Shown here: piece by piece, positions 6,458 through 12,311 of the stretch
How positions within the stretch are numbered: position 1 is the stretch's first letter
Layout of the letters: each line of letters opens with the position of its first letter
DNA from: Methanolobus sp. UBA32
GTDB taxonomy: Archaea; Halobacteriota; Methanosarcinia; Methanosarcinales; Methanosarcinaceae
Length of the DNA: 16,887 nucleotides
Reading direction: 5' to 3'
Assembly: GCA_002507205.1 (NCBI GenBank)
Contig: DAZF01000068.1
Span: forward strand, 3,092 to 19,978
Notes under the pieces: model-generated
Told to the model about the DNA's origin: nothing
The model's database searches: none
What the model saw: the letters and a program-made list of their open reading frames with translations, nothing else
Made by a program: the position numbers and the translations under genes

Positions 6458-6664
6458 ATGGTTAAAATTGTACACGCACAAACTGTACTTACGGAAGATG
6501 AACTGGCGGCTTTAAAGAAGAAATGTAATGAGTCGTCAACGAAAGAAGCCTTGAGTATGGCAGTGCAACATTATCTCGAGTGCGAATATACCGAACTCGA
6601 CGATAAAATGTGGACCAAAAAGCTTGAAAAAGTGGTCCAAAAGAAGAATCAGAAGAAACTATAA
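6458..6664 (+). CDS. DUF5371-family small protein
   Basis: A 68-residue charged protein of unknown function. I recognise the pattern from Methanosarcinaceae: an N-terminal VKIVHAQTVLTEDELAALKK, then ESSTKEALSMAVQHYLECEY and a lysine-rich tail DKMWTKKLEKVVQKKNQKK. The first part, strand then two helices with STKEAL, resembles ribbon-helix-helix DNA-binding proteins of the antitoxin/CopG kind, so a regulator is possible; this is inference. No toxin gene accompanies it. It has a good ribosome site (GGAGAT) and a strong TATA box. The pilin gene begins 25 bases after its stop on the same strand, so the two are probably cotranscribed. Confidence 0.82.
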   Translation: MVKIVHAQTVLTEDELAALKKKCNESSTKEALSMAVQHYLECEYTELDDKMWTKKLEKVVQKKNQKKL

Positions 6665-6689
6665 ACTTCTGAACAAGAGAGGAACAACT

Positions 6690-7163
6690 ATGAGCAAAGC
6701 AAACCAATTTTTAGATGAGGATGCAGTATCCCCGGTCATCGGCGTTATCCTGATGGTCGCAATCACTGTAATCCTTGCTGCAGTCATTGCAGCATTCGTA
6801 TTCGGCATGGGACCACCAGAACAGGCACCACAGGCAAGTATCAGAGCCAGTGCACTTGAAATAAATGATTTTAACTCTGTTATGCTTGAACATCAGGGTG
6901 GGGACGAAGTTACGCTTACTTCATCAGTTACCAAATTCAGTGTTGATGGAAATGCAGTAGATTATGGACCTGTAGGAGACTACTTCTCTGCAGGAGACCG
7001 TCTCTACATTGGAGCAAACGGAACAGATACTTACACCCTTGCAAACACAACAGCTGATGCAGACGCTACTGAAAACGTTGGCAATTCTACCGAGACTGTG
7101 GACCTAACAATCATTGATGTCCAGAGCCAGCAGATGATTGCTGACCTGACCGTAAGGTTCTAA
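6690..7163 (+). CDS. Archaeal type IV pilin with conserved N-terminal domain
   Basis: Secreted pilin-like subunit, 157 residues. The N-terminus MSKANQFLDEDAVSPVIG followed by the hydrophobic VILMVAITVILAAVIAAFVF (about residues 19-38) is the archaeal type IV pilin N-terminal domain, the substrate of the prepilin peptidase (PibD/EppA class). The hydrophobic helix forms the filament core. The rest is a polar, acidic beta-rich head with several N-x-T/S sequons (for example NGTD, NTT, NST), consistent with N-glycosylation on the cell surface. The ATG at 6690 is chosen because it precedes the conserved leader and follows GAGAGG at 6677-6682; the frame is open further upstream into the preceding gene. 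No pilus assembly ATPase or peptidase gene is in the window. A strong terminator follows. Confidence 0.93.
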   Translation: MSKANQFLDEDAVSPVIGVILMVAITVILAAVIAAFVFGMGPPEQAPQASIRASALEINDFNSVMLEHQGGDEVTLTSSVTKFSVDGNAVDYGPVGDYFSAGDRLYIGANGTDTYTLANTTADADATENVGNSTETVDLTIIDVQSQQMIADLTVRF

Positions 7164-7289: not shown

Positions 7290-7829
7290 TTGGATTATGA
7301 AGTAGCTTTAAAGAACTCCTGGAATGTTGTGAAGGAGAACCTCGTAACATTTATAGTTGGTTTATTGATAGCCGCTGTAGGCTCAATATTGATAGTTACC
7401 ATTGCACCTCTTGCCTATGGATTTACTTCCATGGCAGTAAAGGGAGCAAGGGGAGAAAAGATAGAGATCAATGATGTATTTGTAGGCTTTAACAAGGATG
7501 ATTTCATAAGAAGTTGGACATTCATGCTTGTTTACATGGTCGTTGCCGGAGTACTTGGGCAGATAGCATCCATACTCTCAACGATAGTAGGAATACTTTT
7601 CATGTTCACCCTACCATTGCTAGTCATTAAAGGATATGGCGGTATTGAGGGAATAACAGAAAGTATTGAGATTATCAAGAAAGTCCCTGTGGAAAGTATA
7701 ATCGTTTATGTGATAACACTTGTTCTCAACATGATCGGTGCAATCCTTCTGGGAGTCGGACTGCTAATAACAGTACCTATCAGTACAGTATTCCTGGCAA
7801 ATGCAACATTCGAGCTTGCTGAAGAATAA
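7290..7829 (+). CDS. Small integral membrane protein of unknown function (DUF4013-like)
   Basis: A 179-residue membrane protein. It opens with an amphipathic YEVALKNSWNVVKENLV, then hydrophobic segments at about residues 17-44, 73-115 (probably two passes) and 135-172 (probably two passes). The loop MAVKGARGEKIEINDVFVGF between the first segments resembles archaeal DUF4013/DUF975-type proteins, but I cannot assign the family firmly. The start codon is TTG at 7290; no in-frame ATG fits, and AGGATGTGG just upstream can serve as ribosome site. It is a single-gene unit with its own TATA box and a strong terminator. No function is known; a role in membrane organisation would be a guess. Confidence 0.75.
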   Translation: MDYEVALKNSWNVVKENLVTFIVGLLIAAVGSILIVTIAPLAYGFTSMAVKGARGEKIEINDVFVGFNKDDFIRSWTFMLVYMVVAGVLGQIASILSTIVGILFMFTLPLLVIKGYGGIEGITESIEIIKKVPVESIIVYVITLVLNMIGAILLGVGLLITVPISTVFLANATFELAEE

Positions 7830-7916: not shown

Positions 7917-10664
7917 TCAGATTCCGTATATCTCATAACCCTTTTTGACCTTTTCTATATCCCTTTCGATTACAGATAACCTGTTCTTATCCACCTTCAT
8001 ACCGGCAAGGCTCTCGATGAACCAGATAGATTTAACGTGGTCATCAGGCGTTAGTTTCCAGTCGGGTTTTTCCATATAGAAATCAATGCCATCGGCATAA
8101 TGCAGCAGTTCCATCCTCACTTTTTCAGTGATCCATCCAAGCTCTTCATAATAAGAGAGTATGTCAGGGAGATTATTACGACCTACAAGCCCCATCAAAA
8201 ACTCAAGCCATTCCATACAGAGTTTCATATTGCCTGAATTTTTGACTATATTGGAAAGGTGGACATTCTGCCCGAATCCCTTGTAACTTTTGGCACCCAG
8301 TTTTTTTAATTCTGCTTCCACATATTCGGTGACAGAACTTATCTTCTCAAGCATTGCAGCATTCTTCTGCTCGGATTCCTGCCTGAACTCCTTGAACTCA
8401 GAAGAAACCATGCCAAGATTATCAATCAATGAAGATATGGATCTTGAAAATTCAATTGAAGTCGATTTTGTATCCTCATGGGATTTTTCCATGGAACTGA
8501 TCCTTGAACCGATTACATCCAGCTTACCGGAGACATCATCAATACGGGAAAATTTTGATTCGTTTTCCTGCAATGACTCATGCAACTGTGCAAGAAGTGC
8601 AGTATAACAATTCACAAGTTCAGAAATATTGTCTTCCATCCGGGAAAGATCAGACTTGATGGAAGTATTATCAGACAGGAGAACTTCAAGATTTGATTCA
8701 AAATTATCAACCTTTCCTTCAATAGAACTCGTCTTTTCTTCAATATCTGCAAACTTTATCTGATCCTGAGCCAGGACATCTTCACTGGCTTTGGCGAAAG
8801 AGGACAATGTCTCGTCCAGATATGAAACCTTACTCGAAAAGTTTTCGACCTCACCACGAACAGAAGTGAATTGCATGCCCATGTCCCTGAGATTGCCTTT
8901 TAGCTCGTCGATGTCACTTTCAATTCCAGCATACCTCTTATCAGCAATCATGCCATTTGATTCTGCAGAGAGAATCTTCGACAAACTCATCCTGGAAGAG
9001 TCTACAGAATTATCATTATGAGAAACAAGTATATTGTCAAACAACTCAGATTCTTCCTGCTGTCCCGTCATTTCTCCTACGTTCGGTATTTCAGAGCTGC
9101 TTTCAGGCAGAATCTCATGACCGGTCAAAGCATTTGAGGTCACAGATTCACCAACTGGTACGACTCCTACGAGTTCGTCATCTACACCTAAGAAATCAGG
9201 ACTACTATCCCGAACAGTATTTTGAACAGAATCATGAGAAACAATTTCGTCAAGGGAATATTTAGGATCCATTGCCATTACAGGGTTATCTATTGGAGTC
9301 ACTTTCCTGATAGCCTCAACAGGCTCACGCACCAGATCGGATTCAAAAGGATTTACCTGTGCACCATCTGCAGTTTCCTTCAGAACTTCTGCAGATGAGA
9401 CGAACGGATTAACCGGAGAAGGAGCAACGTTAACGTCGGATTCATTTTCAAATGGTGACTGAGATGCAGAATTTGCAGCATTGGTATACATCGAATCTTC
9501 TGACAGTGTATCTCCCCTCATGTCCTCCATTCTTTCAATAAGGCTCTTCCCTTTCGTCAGATTTTTGAAAAAACCTCTGGCGACAACAGATATCCCTTCA
9601 ATATTCTTTTTGAATGAATCTACGTTAATAGGAGGCTTAATTGACCTGTTGCTGCCAGTTTTCTCTTTTACAGATGTTGTTTCAGCACTATGGAAAGGTT
9701 CACCAAAAGGATTTACGCCGGTAGTAGAGACAGCAGAAAACGGATTTACACCAGCACCAGAAGGAGCTTCAAACGGATTAGCACCAACCGCAGGAGTAGA
9801 GTCAAAAGGATTGGCACCAACATCAGGTGCAGCAACAAATGGATTGACACCAACATCATGAGGAGTTTCAAAGGGAGTGGCACTAACAGTAGGAGCAGTA
9901 TCAAAGGGATTTACGCCAGCAGCAGGAGGAGCTTCAAACGGATTGACACCAACGGCAGGGGCAGAATCAAAGAGATTAGCACCAATAGTAGGGGCGGCAG
10001 CAAAGGGATTTATTTGAGGAGCAGATGCATTTTCTGACGAAGGGACAGCTGACGGGAATGTTATTGAATCATGAACTGCTGATTCGGACATATTTATGGC
10101 CGGTGGCTCAGGACCGTTCCCCGATTCAGTGTCAATTCCAGGCGGAATAAAAGGTTCAAATAATGGTGGAGGTGATCGCTTTTTAGGAGAAACACCAGAA
10201 TTTTGATTGGTTTTTGCAGACGCATTATCATCTATGCCAGAATTATCAAAAGTAAACAATGTTTTGGGAATATCATTGAGAACGCCTTCGTTTTGGTCAG
10301 GCGTTCCGGGAATATTCGACGCATTCATGAATGAAGGTAAAGAAGGAGGAAAAGACATCTCATCAGGATTTGAAGTTGGTACCTCGCTTTTATTTTCACT
10401 CACTGCAGACAGATCTGGTAAATCCCCAAATGAAGGAAAACTCATTTCCGGCATTTGACCAACCTTAACATCTGATGCAGGTTCATGAGCCTCTATTTTT
10501 GCCTCCTCCATTGGAATATCTGCAAAAGCATTTGCTAATATATCAGGAATCGGAGGAGGTGAAAACATTTTATTTTTAGAAGCATCCAGCGATAGCTTCG
10601 CCTCATCACCAGCTGATGACATAATCTCTGCTATTTTTTTATTCTCCCATGGAAGTTCACTCAT
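7917..10664 (-). CDS. Long repeat-containing protein with coiled coil and C-terminal ArlD/E (FlaD/E) domain
   Basis: A 915-residue cytoplasmic-type protein with no signal peptide or membrane segment. In order: an N-terminal helix (SELPWENKKIAEIMSSAG), a proline/serine-rich disordered region (about 30-215) with short repeated SFP motifs, nine 11-residue NPF repeats (219-317) plus a partial tenth, a basic segment with VARGFFKNLTKGKSLIERME (about 359-380), two more NPF motifs, a long coiled coil (about 570-790), and a C-terminal domain of about 90 residues (KLCMEWLEFLMGLVGRNNLP ... WKLTPDDHVKSIWFIESL) matching the archaellum accessory ArlD/E domain. Usual ArlD/E proteins have roughly 130-400 residues, so this is unusually long, and no arl genes flank it. 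ATG at 10664 is preferred; a TTG at 10673 is possible. The ribosome site is weak. Family role: ArlC/D/E form the cytosolic ring linking archaellum motor and chemotaxis. Its role here is inferred only. Confidence 0.85.
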   Translation of the reverse strand: MSELPWENKKIAEIMSSAGDEAKLSLDASKNKMFSPPPIPDILANAFADIPMEEAKIEAHEPASDVKVGQMPEMSFPSFGDLPDLSAVSENKSEVPTSNPDEMSFPPSLPSFMNASNIPGTPDQNEGVLNDIPKTLFTFDNSGIDDNASAKTNQNSGVSPKKRSPPPLFEPFIPPGIDTESGNGPEPPAINMSESAVHDSITFPSAVPSSENASAPQINPFAAAPTIGANLFDSAPAVGVNPFEAPPAAGVNPFDTAPTVSATPFETPHDVGVNPFVAAPDVGANPFDSTPAVGANPFEAPSGAGVNPFSAVSTTGVNPFGEPFHSAETTSVKEKTGSNRSIKPPINVDSFKKNIEGISVVARGFFKNLTKGKSLIERMEDMRGDTLSEDSMYTNAANSASQSPFENESDVNVAPSPVNPFVSSAEVLKETADGAQVNPFESDLVREPVEAIRKVTPIDNPVMAMDPKYSLDEIVSHDSVQNTVRDSSPDFLGVDDELVGVVPVGESVTSNALTGHEILPESSSEIPNVGEMTGQQEESELFDNILVSHNDNSVDSSRMSLSKILSAESNGMIADKRYAGIESDIDELKGNLRDMGMQFTSVRGEVENFSSKVSYLDETLSSFAKASEDVLAQDQIKFADIEEKTSSIEGKVDNFESNLEVLLSDNTSIKSDLSRMEDNISELVNCYTALLAQLHESLQENESKFSRIDDVSGKLDVIGSRISSMEKSHEDTKSTSIEFSRSISSLIDNLGMVSSEFKEFRQESEQKNAAMLEKISSVTEYVEAELKKLGAKSYKGFGQNVHLSNIVKNSGNMKLCMEWLEFLMGLVGRNNLPDILSYYEELGWITEKVRMELLHYADGIDFYMEKPDWKLTPDDHVKSIWFIESLAGMKVDKNRLSVIERDIEKVKKGYEIYGI
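9705..10010 (-). repeat. 33-bp tandem repeat coding for 11-residue NPF units
   Basis: Read on the minus strand, nine consecutive in-frame units of 33 bases (10010 down to 9714), plus a partial tenth, encode the pattern [N/T][P/L]F-x5-[x]-x-G-[V/A]. Examples are NPFEAPPAAGV, NPFDTAPTVSA, NPFVAAPDVGA and NPFDSTPAVGA. Units differ at DNA level but keep exact 33-base spacing with no indels, so the array grew by duplication and is under frame selection. Confidence 0.92.
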
Positions 10665-10692
10665 AAAAACCAACTATCGATTAAAAAGCATT

Positions 10693-10740
10693 AATTATTA
10701 TAAATTCAAGAATATTATATGCGCGATATTTATATAAGAG
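10693..10740 (-). promoter_or_regulatory. Candidate promoters of the long ArlD/E-like gene
   Basis: Two TATA-like elements face the gene. The proximal TTTATAATAA (about 10695-10704) predicts a start near 10673, giving a leader under ten bases. The distal CTCTTATATAAATA (about 10727-10740) predicts a start near 10708 and a leader of about 44 bases. The short-leader option fits the lack of a clear Shine-Dalgarno sequence. Confidence 0.4.
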
Positions 10741-10784
10741 TTACTCTTGGCAGAAAAACTAATGTTTAAAGATAATACAGATGA

Positions 10785-10891
10785 GAAAATAGTAAAAAGT
10801 TTTAGGCGCACGGGAATGATTGAGGGAATGGACGAAAGATAAAGGATGAAATTTGTGCTAAAAATTCACTTTACTGTGAGTTTGTGCGCCT
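10785..10891 (-). ncRNA. Candidate small regulatory RNA, about 105 nt
   Basis: Read on the minus strand, a strong TATA box (TTATATATAA, 10911-10920, preceded by CGAAACTC as a BRE-like element) predicts a start at about 10889-10892. Exactly there begins the arm TAGGCGCAC (10892-10884), which pairs perfectly over nine bases with GTGCGCCTA (10811-10803) near the 3' end. Just inside the 5' arm is a second hairpin: AACTCAC / GTGAATT (10882-10876 with 10869-10863) with a six-base loop and one G-U pair. Between the second hairpin and the closing arm is a pyrimidine-rich loop (about 10854-10812) with ATCCTTT, TTCCCTC and TTCCC. After the closing stem come T-runs (10798-10794, 10789-10786). No open frame of note is present. 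The structure is seen; transcription is inferred. It is not a tRNA: no T-arm consensus. Confidence 0.5.
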
Positions 10892-10908
10892 ACTTGTGCA
10901 TAGAAAAC

Positions 10909-10925
10909 AATTATATATAAGAGTT
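10909..10925 (-). promoter_or_regulatory. TATA/BRE promoter of the candidate small RNA
   Basis: TTATATATAA is self-complementary, so it could recruit TBP in either orientation. The BRE-like GAAACTC on the minus-strand upstream side favours transcription toward lower coordinates, into the candidate RNA. The 12-mer AACTCTTATATA recurs at 10731-10742 on the same strand, upstream of the ArlD/E-like gene. Confidence 0.5.
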
Positions 10926-11048
10926 TCGCACATCCTCAAAAACATGCACATCATGAGCACATGAGATAATCACAATCATCTAACACAATACATGTTCGCA
11001 ATGATATAAAAAAATATAAAAAATAGACATTGTAAATGTGCAAATGAA
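10926..11048. other. Non-coding stretch with repeated GCACAT words
   Basis: No gene is seen. GCACAT occurs three times on the plus strand (starting at 10928, 10946 and 10957), with further GTGC/GCAC words nearby. It may be regulatory DNA upstream of the candidate small RNA, or chance in AT-rich sequence. Confidence 0.35.
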
Positions 11049-11076
11049 TAAAACATAAAAAAAGAAAGAGAGAATC
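11049..11076 (-). terminator. T-rich terminator after thiI
   Basis: Immediately after the thiI stop on the minus strand the sequence runs TCTCTCTTTCTTTTTTTATG and then GTTTTATT. This is the T-rich type of archaeal terminator; no stable hairpin precedes it. Confidence 0.5.
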
Positions 11077-11080
11077 CGGC

Positions 11081-12256
11081 TCAAATATCCAGATTCATAA
11101 TTCTTGCATTTTCAATAGACTTGCGAACAAGATCATCAATATCGATCTTTTCTTCTTCTGCAACCAGAGAGTCAAAGCCAGCTTTTACCTCAGGATGTAC
11201 CGGAACTGCCTGACAACTTCCGGCAGGCTGGATAGATATATCAAAAGTACCTATCTTTCTTGCAATATCGATTATCTCATTCTTGTCAAGACCGATCAGC
11301 GGATGATATATAGGAAGGCAAAGACCGTAGATTTCAGCATACATATTAGCTGCGGTCTGGGAAGCCACCTGACCAAGAGATGAACCGGTAACTATACCTG
11401 AAGCATCTTCTTTTTTCATTATTTCAGCAGCTATCCTGTACATGGTACGCTTACAGAGAAGACATGTTTTGTTCTTAGAACATTTATCTATAAAATTCCC
11501 GAGGTTGGAACCATTCGGAACCTCATATGCCTTGAAAGCATGACTTGGACACCATTCCTGGAGTGCTTTTAGACAATCCATTGTGCGCTTATGGGCAGCG
11601 TCCTCATTGTAAGGAGAATTATTGCAATAAACAGGCACAATCTCCACACCTCTTTTCATCATGAGCCATGTGGAAACCGGAGAATCAATTCCTCCAGAAA
11701 CAAGGGATATCATTTTACCCTGAGTTCCCAGTGGAAGTCCACCTACGCCTTCTATTGATTCTGTGAAAACGTATGCCTTGCTCTGGCGCATTTCCACGAA
11801 TATTTCCCGGTCGGGATTTGATAGATCCACAGAAGGAGTAATACCTTTTGACTCCAGCATATTCCATACCGCATCACCGCACCTCATGCCAATCTCACGT
11901 GATGAAAAACTATGGTTACCCGTACGTCTGGCCCTGATAGCAAAAGACTGACCCTCAGTAACAAAACTATCGGCAAGCTTTGCACATAAGTCGCCTGCAG
12001 CCTCTATAGTAGCATCCGTCACCTGTGCAAACGAAGCAGATACCACACCGAAAACATCTGCTGCTGCTTTTGCAGCCCGCATATCTTCGGATTCGATGAA
12101 TATTCTTCCCCATTCACGCATTATCCGGGAATAAGGTATACCACGGTGATCCAGCATTGCGGATATATTTTTCACCAGAGTCCTTTCATAAAAGTTACGA
12201 ACGCCTGTGCTCTTTAAGGCAAGTTCACCATATCTTACAATGATTATGTTTCCCAT
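11081..12256 (-). CDS. thiI: tRNA 4-thiouridine sulfurtransferase ThiI
   Basis: Adenylates uridine 8 of tRNA and exchanges the oxygen for sulfur; it may also supply sulfur for thiamine. The 391 residues contain an N-terminal ferredoxin-like/THUMP region (about 1-165) and a PP-loop ATPase with SGGIDSPVS at 187-195. There is no C-terminal rhodanese domain, as usual in archaea. The CxxC motif CLLC at 265-268 matches the cysteines reported to be essential in the Methanococcus maripaludis enzyme, and a further cysteine (C348, in GSCQAVP) aligns with the active-site region of the bacterial protein. The ATG at 12256 gives the standard MGNIIIVRYGELALKS start; the frame is open to a TTG at 12304 but that extension is not typical. 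A TATA box at about 12320-12329 suggests its own promoter. Confidence 0.94.
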   Translation of the reverse strand: MGNIIIVRYGELALKSTGVRNFYERTLVKNISAMLDHRGIPYSRIMREWGRIFIESEDMRAAKAAADVFGVVSASFAQVTDATIEAAGDLCAKLADSFVTEGQSFAIRARRTGNHSFSSREIGMRCGDAVWNMLESKGITPSVDLSNPDREIFVEMRQSKAYVFTESIEGVGGLPLGTQGKMISLVSGGIDSPVSTWLMMKRGVEIVPVYCNNSPYNEDAAHKRTMDCLKALQEWCPSHAFKAYEVPNGSNLGNFIDKCSKNKTCLLCKRTMYRIAAEIMKKEDASGIVTGSSLGQVASQTAANMYAEIYGLCLPIYHPLIGLDKNEIIDIARKIGTFDISIQPAGSCQAVPVHPEVKAGFDSLVAEEEKIDIDDLVRKSIENARIMNLDI

Positions 12257-12311
12257 TGGTAAGAAATCAGCAATAAGACTATTAAAGTTAATCGGAAAAG
12301 GCAACTATGAC

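Follow-up and report, generated by a model that had tools for sequence, protein, structure and literature searches.

A probable gene for a small non-coding RNA, with a dedicated archaeal promoter, between thiI and an arlD/E-like gene in Methanolobus and related Methanosarcinaceae

The window, a 16,887-nt stretch of Methanolobus sp. UBA32 (contig DAZF01000068.1), carries thiI (11081-12304, minus strand). An arlD/E-like archaellum gene (7917-10673, minus strand) adjoins thiI. The two genes are separated by a 407-base intergenic region. The RNA gene described here lies inside it, with thiI as the upstream and the arlD/E-like gene as the downstream neighbour. ThiI of the window is 97% identical to ThiI of M. 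mangrovi. The arlD/E-like product is 918 aa long, has a coiled-coil-like middle part and an Arch_fla_DE domain confined to residues 802-891, near the C-terminus. An ORF (6624-7163, plus strand) that matches TIGR02537, the N-terminal domain of archaellins and type IV pilins, is located close to the arlD/E-like gene and is possibly a surface-fibre gene. The next ORF (7290-7829) has no NCBIfam match.

The putative RNA gene is about 98 nt long (10794-10891, minus strand), with both ends predicted, and appears as a conserved block in 30/111 genomes of the family. It is preceded on the minus strand by a BRE-like GAAACT and a TATA box (GAAACT-CTTATATA, 10927 to 10914), where the first-pass annotation placed the promoter. 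The TATA box, defined as the best match to TTTATATA within the upstream stretch, agrees with it at 7 or 8 of 8 positions and stands at the same spacing in 31/31 loci (the window and 30 genomes). All 31 have 26.5 or 27.5 bases between the centre of the TATA box and the A of AGGCGCAC; a start about 26 bases after the box had been proposed. The RNA start is predicted at 10891 or 10890. In Methanolobus psychrophilus a TATA-to-start distance of about 19-22 nt is given in the available text of PMC5378194, which suits an RNA that begins with the first bases of the stem. The T-rich tail claimed after the second arm is a T5 run (10798-10794, minus strand), proposed as the terminator. In 26/31 loci four or more consecutive T begin no more than 10 bases from the stem. 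The element ATGCACA (10895-10901, minus strand; about -10 to -4) is present in 29/31 loci. Across 2,620,000 bases of the M. mangrovi contig there is a single TTATATA-N8-18-ATGCACA. ATGCACA, near -10 of the RNA promoter, is a possible site for a dedicated regulator.

The ends of the predicted RNA are complementary. A perfect 9-bp inverted repeat, claimed earlier and read in the sequence as such, is formed by the 5' arm TAGGCGCAC (10884-10892, minus strand) and the 3' arm GTGCGCCTA (10803-10811, minus strand). It is the one 9-bp inverted repeat of the intergenic region at spacings up to 110. Some 9-bp repeat also occurs in 24% of 500 dinucleotide shuffles; a 9-bp repeat with at least 6 G/C per arm occurs in 0/500. 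The minus-strand fold has an energy of -16.9 kcal/mol vs -7.25 (sd 2.28) in 200 shuffles (z -4.2). The similar plus-strand stretch gives z -2.1. Six of the 9 pairs are invariant in 19 distinct sequences. Compensatory changes, which the first-pass annotation expected as support for the stem, are absent (0/9 pairs altered on both sides), because the stem hardly varies. Drift of the arms without compensation, named there as the sign of a false stem, is not seen either. Only isolated pairs are lost: one inner pair in each of two loci (L002 and L110), and the outermost pair in L110 and L115. The closing stem would tie the RNA ends together, probably protecting both.

The nested 7-bp hairpin proposed at 10863-10882 does not hold up. 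On the minus strand it contains a C.A mismatch; its 7 pairs, one of them G.U, exist on the plus strand only. It is not conserved, with 76% of cells paired and two pairs missing in 6/19 sequences. Better kept is a weak inner hairpin (10846-10869, minus strand), AUGAAUUU-UAGCAC-AAAUUUCAU, with its loop around UAGCAC and 93% of cells paired. It forms in the cut-out segment of 29/30 genomes (14/15 distinct segments). In genome G058 it still folds, with both arms differing and the register shifted. This hairpin is hardly more stable than its shuffles: in only 2/15 distinct segments does the fold energy lie among the lowest 5% of the shuffled ones. No covariation was found in it by alignment count.

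Conservation follows the proposed gene. By 10-base steps over 31 loci, identity is about 0.34-0.60 upstream and reaches 0.83 at the TATA box and 0.92 in the first arm; it is 0.76-0.78 in the variable part and 0.97-1.00 in a core of about 40 nt. Past the T-run it drops to about 0.3. The core contains the near-invariant pyrimidine-rich strand CCUUUAUCUYUCGUCCAUUCCCUCAA (10820-10845, minus strand; identity 0.97-1.00 in 31 loci), which is proposed as the pairing strand and is complementary to the cheC start region. These approximately 26 nt and AUUAUUCCC are pyrimidine-rich and unpaired in the consensus. In the most divergent copy (L110, genome G062) the inner hairpin is lost and the core strand is largely retained.

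One copy is found in each of 30/111 Methanosarcinaceae genomes by BLAST of DNA. A covariance model of 19 distinct sequences finds the same 30, all at E 1.9e-19 or better; all further matches have E values of 0.014 or higher. Run on 185 genomes of the order with an E cut-off of 0.05, the model returns the 30 carriers and a weak match in G004 only. The matches in G004 (E 0.014), G077 (0.035) and G083 (0.13), which are Methanosarcina-sized genomes, consist of short shared runs only and were treated as chance. A scan with the core gave 0 matches in viral contigs and 0 in plasmids. Alignment of ThiI yielded 80 loci. The full RNA pattern is present in 13 of them, every time 3' of thiI and on the same strand. 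In 9/13 loci the RNA is succeeded by the arlD/E C-terminus; the remaining 4 contigs stop too early. Among the 67 ThiI loci without the RNA, the arlD/E C-terminus is present only in L010, and in 29 of the 67 the covariance model finds nothing. Named carrier loci belong to Methanolobus and Methanomethylovorans, one being labelled just Methanosarcinaceae; the genus of the other carriers was assigned from sequence type, and fragmented genomes in the set are possibly incomplete.

Three Methanolobus-like genomes (G050, G052 and G056) stand beyond the 30 carriers. In G050, the genome of L010, a run of N covers the RNA site. In G052 the RNA was not found. In G056 (L012) thiI is followed by an ORF that starts like arlD/E, with no RNA between them and only an E 0.55 match elsewhere, an apparent loss in one lineage.

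Near-fixed spacing, a single copy in 30/111 genomes and a conserved block made up of promoter and RNA support the earlier proposal of a gene for a small non-coding RNA under a dedicated archaeal promoter. It is very likely that the locus is a real non-coding RNA gene. There is about an even chance that its product would act as a base-pairing regulator of translation starts. The main reading (probability roughly 0.5) is a trans-acting sRNA of about 98 nt, encoded by a single-copy gene with its own promoter and terminator, whose pyrimidine-rich strand would cover ribosome-binding sites. The near-invariant strand would pair with purine-rich start regions (Shine-Dalgarno sequence, start codon and first codons). 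Such pairing would block access of the ribosome to mRNA starts. From sequence we infer that the gene would be transcribed, that the RNA would have the ends given above, and that it would pair in the cell and repress, with cheC and a 4Fe-4S gene as targets.

Pairing was scanned by an own energy model, in which some stacking values are approximate, and the energies are comparative only. The M. mangrovi gene set came from a simple ORF rule. A first duplex scan, in which long loops were allowed, did not separate the real from the shuffled RNA and was superseded by a stricter one. With the full loop, 225/2833 M. mangrovi start regions reach -16 vs 89-160 in 16 shuffles. Mid-gene windows also show an excess (98/1789 vs 43-79 in 8 shuffles). 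With the near-invariant 41-nt block at -14, 185 start sites match vs a mean of 133 (sd 30), and 5/60 shuffles are as high. Gene-end windows show a similar excess (6/60 shuffles as high) and mid-gene windows show none (20/60). The ratio of start to mid-gene matches is equalled by 10/60 shuffles. On the opposite strand of the start regions the block has 3 matches vs 185. Genome-wide enrichment of pairing at start sites is weak.

The first candidate target, cheC, sits in a che operon (confirmed by Pfam). With cognate RNAs its start region pairs at -18.9 or lower in 21/21 Methanolobus. In 5 Methanomethylovorans the pairing is weaker (-11.7 to -19.0), with the RNA core unchanged. The mean over 26 genomes is -23.2 vs -11.3 (sd 1.5) for 20 shuffles (z -7.8); here, as for the 4Fe-4S gene below, real values come from cognate RNAs and shuffles from the M. 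mangrovi loop, both targets were chosen for their top rank in a scan, and the pairing partly uses conserved codons. Five neighbouring gene families have z between -1.5 and +0.4. For 7 relatives that yielded no match to the RNA, the own model puts the cheC site at -8.6 to -14.5, a comparison confounded by kinship. RNAduplex gives -9.5 to -19.0 in these 7 vs -17.4 to -33.4 in the 21 Methanolobus, and the groups overlap. The cheC site of G050 (-19.4) was left out of the group without the RNA because its RNA site is unreadable. CheC of the candidate-target type is present in 26/28 carriers examined out of the 30 (E up to 1e-20) and in 8/33 other family genomes examined out of 81 (E up to 1e-25), 3 of these 8 being Methanolobus-like. 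The che operon of M. mangrovi (L146, contig 105-120 kb) comprises several CheC-like genes, CheD, CheR, CheB, CheA and a CheY-like gene, and high pairing scores are seen at several start regions of the operon. Other che genes in the M. mangrovi scan reach -18.6 (cheD), -16.3 (a PilM-like gene) and -15.8 (a second cheC). Across genomes the PilM-like gene reaches -16 in 7/21 (z -1.5). As a target cheC is a tentative candidate, and a true target relation is somewhat doubtful. A more specific proposal is unlikely: a dedicated sRNA of motile methylotrophic methanogens, encoded beside the arlD/E-like gene, would control chemotaxis by clamping the cheC mRNA. One strand (CGUCCAUUCCCUCA) would pair with the Shine-Dalgarno sequence UGAGGG and the early codons (AUGGACGA), the start codon being looped out, and would thus tune CheC within the che operon. 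A real cheC pairing would provide a case of archaeal chemotaxis controlled at the RNA level.

The second candidate target is a gene for a 4Fe-4S (NapH-like) membrane protein. Core BLAST matches in two species pointed at its start, and in an independent scan it was the top of the 2833 M. mangrovi start regions (-30.0). A best match better than -30.0 was obtained with 3/16 shuffled RNAs. Orthologues scored with cognate RNAs reach -16 or lower in 13/27 genomes (z -8.4). In the other 14/27 the pairing fails despite an unchanged RNA core. Further matches in the M. mangrovi scan are Ppx/GppA, DUF7524 and a response-regulator gene. A match at Thi4 (273490-274080, -28.5) was discarded; its start was read as internal, the Pfam match beginning at profile position 57.

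A real non-coding RNA could also act mainly by binding protein, as a scaffold, a sponge or an RNP component, with the invariant strand as the protein site. This is the strongest of the alternatives, and its own probability is rather low. Near-invariance of about 40 nt over two genera exceeds what a single mRNA target would account for, the antisense signal across the genome is weak, and the predicted targets are not retained in every carrier. Evidence against this reading is a cheC pairing that far exceeds shuffles and neighbouring genes, and an unpaired strand complementary in type to purine-rich starts (3 opposite-strand matches vs 185).

It is quite improbable that the block is a cis-acting element, either a 3' region of thiI or a leader or attenuator of the arlD/E-like gene, and not a free RNA. 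Such a role is suggested by the position between two same-strand genes, with the downstream ORF starting about 180-280 bases further on in the loci compared. Against this, a TATA box at near-fixed spacing and a T-run belong to the RNA itself. The downstream gene carries a separate TATA box in the window (10731-10738, minus strand), where identity climbs again to 0.68. In L110 no thiI ORF is present within 1.5 kb upstream of the RNA, which argues that the RNA is independent of thiI. The start regions of thiI and arlD/E show no pairing (z +0.4 and -0.5, respectively).

A guide RNA (C/D, H/ACA or other) or another known housekeeping RNA is very improbable. A compact conserved archaeal RNA bearing an unpaired strand would suit this class. 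No Rfam family, however, matches at the gathering threshold in the whole window, in line with the earlier reading that tRNA, H/ACA and C/D signatures are lacking; below the threshold, nothing at 10680-11080 is better than E 6.4. The best pairings with 16S (-21.8) and with the following 3.7 kb (-23.3) equal the shuffle averages.

That the block encodes a tiny protein on either strand is the least credible alternative: the sense frame is open through and beyond the block in 13/30 genomes and antisense frames of 9-15 aa exist, but the sense frame is shut after 3 codons in 16/30 and missing in 1/30 because the variable part changes length, the core is invariant even at would-be third positions, and no reading frame is conserved across the 30 genomes, as the earlier reading of the block as non-coding had it.

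The reading as a base-pairing sRNA has parallels among known regulators. To our knowledge, few archaeal sRNAs have known targets. In bacteria, C/U-rich anti-Shine-Dalgarno sRNAs such as RsaE/RoxS aim an unpaired C/U-rich strand at purine-rich start sites. We know of no homology between them and the RNA described here. Unlike in RsaE/RoxS, the strand here is about 26 nt long, invariant and kept open by an end stem. A known kind of methanogen sRNA masks ribosome-binding sites, as described in the parts of PMC3510493 and PMC5867862 consulted. According to the former, sRNA162 of Methanosarcina mazei is 191 nt long, has three stem-loops and is reported only in Methanosarcina. It is likewise an intergenic methanogen sRNA, whose unpaired linker pairs with mRNA and masks the ribosome-binding site. 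By that description, however, its linker is its most variable part, whereas the unpaired strand here is the least variable; and where sRNA162 has three stem-loops, the present RNA has a single end stem plus a weak hairpin. Similar to the present RNA is sRNA154 of Methanosarcina mazei, likewise a conserved sRNA of a methanogen, which carries an anti-ribosome-binding-site segment and acts on several targets (available parts of PMC5867862). It differs, as described there, in having its segments on two loops, in being conserved in Methanosarcina and in its link to nitrogen limitation. The covariance model found no convincing match in Methanosarcina-sized genomes. The RNA family appears new. It is absent from the Rfam copy searched and unnamed in the titles among the literature matches listed.

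Among the literature matches listed, the only work on archaeal sRNA together with post-transcriptional control of archaellum or chemotaxis concerns the Haloferax regulator CsmR. For Methanolobus psychrophilus R15, 195 intergenic sRNA starts are given in the available text of PMC5378194. No description of the present RNA was found in that text; the nine cold-box sRNAs highlighted in it form a group, whereas the RNA here is single-copy. The R15 set comes from the same genus, and the RNA is present in a genome with the R15 ThiI: carrier G048 has a ThiI identical over 100 residues to that of R15, and its copy of the block is at C1:2307165-2307252. The RNA may for this reason be listed, unremarked, in Table S6 of PMC5378194. 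The RNA is single-copy and unusually conserved, and published start-site data exist for a carrier.
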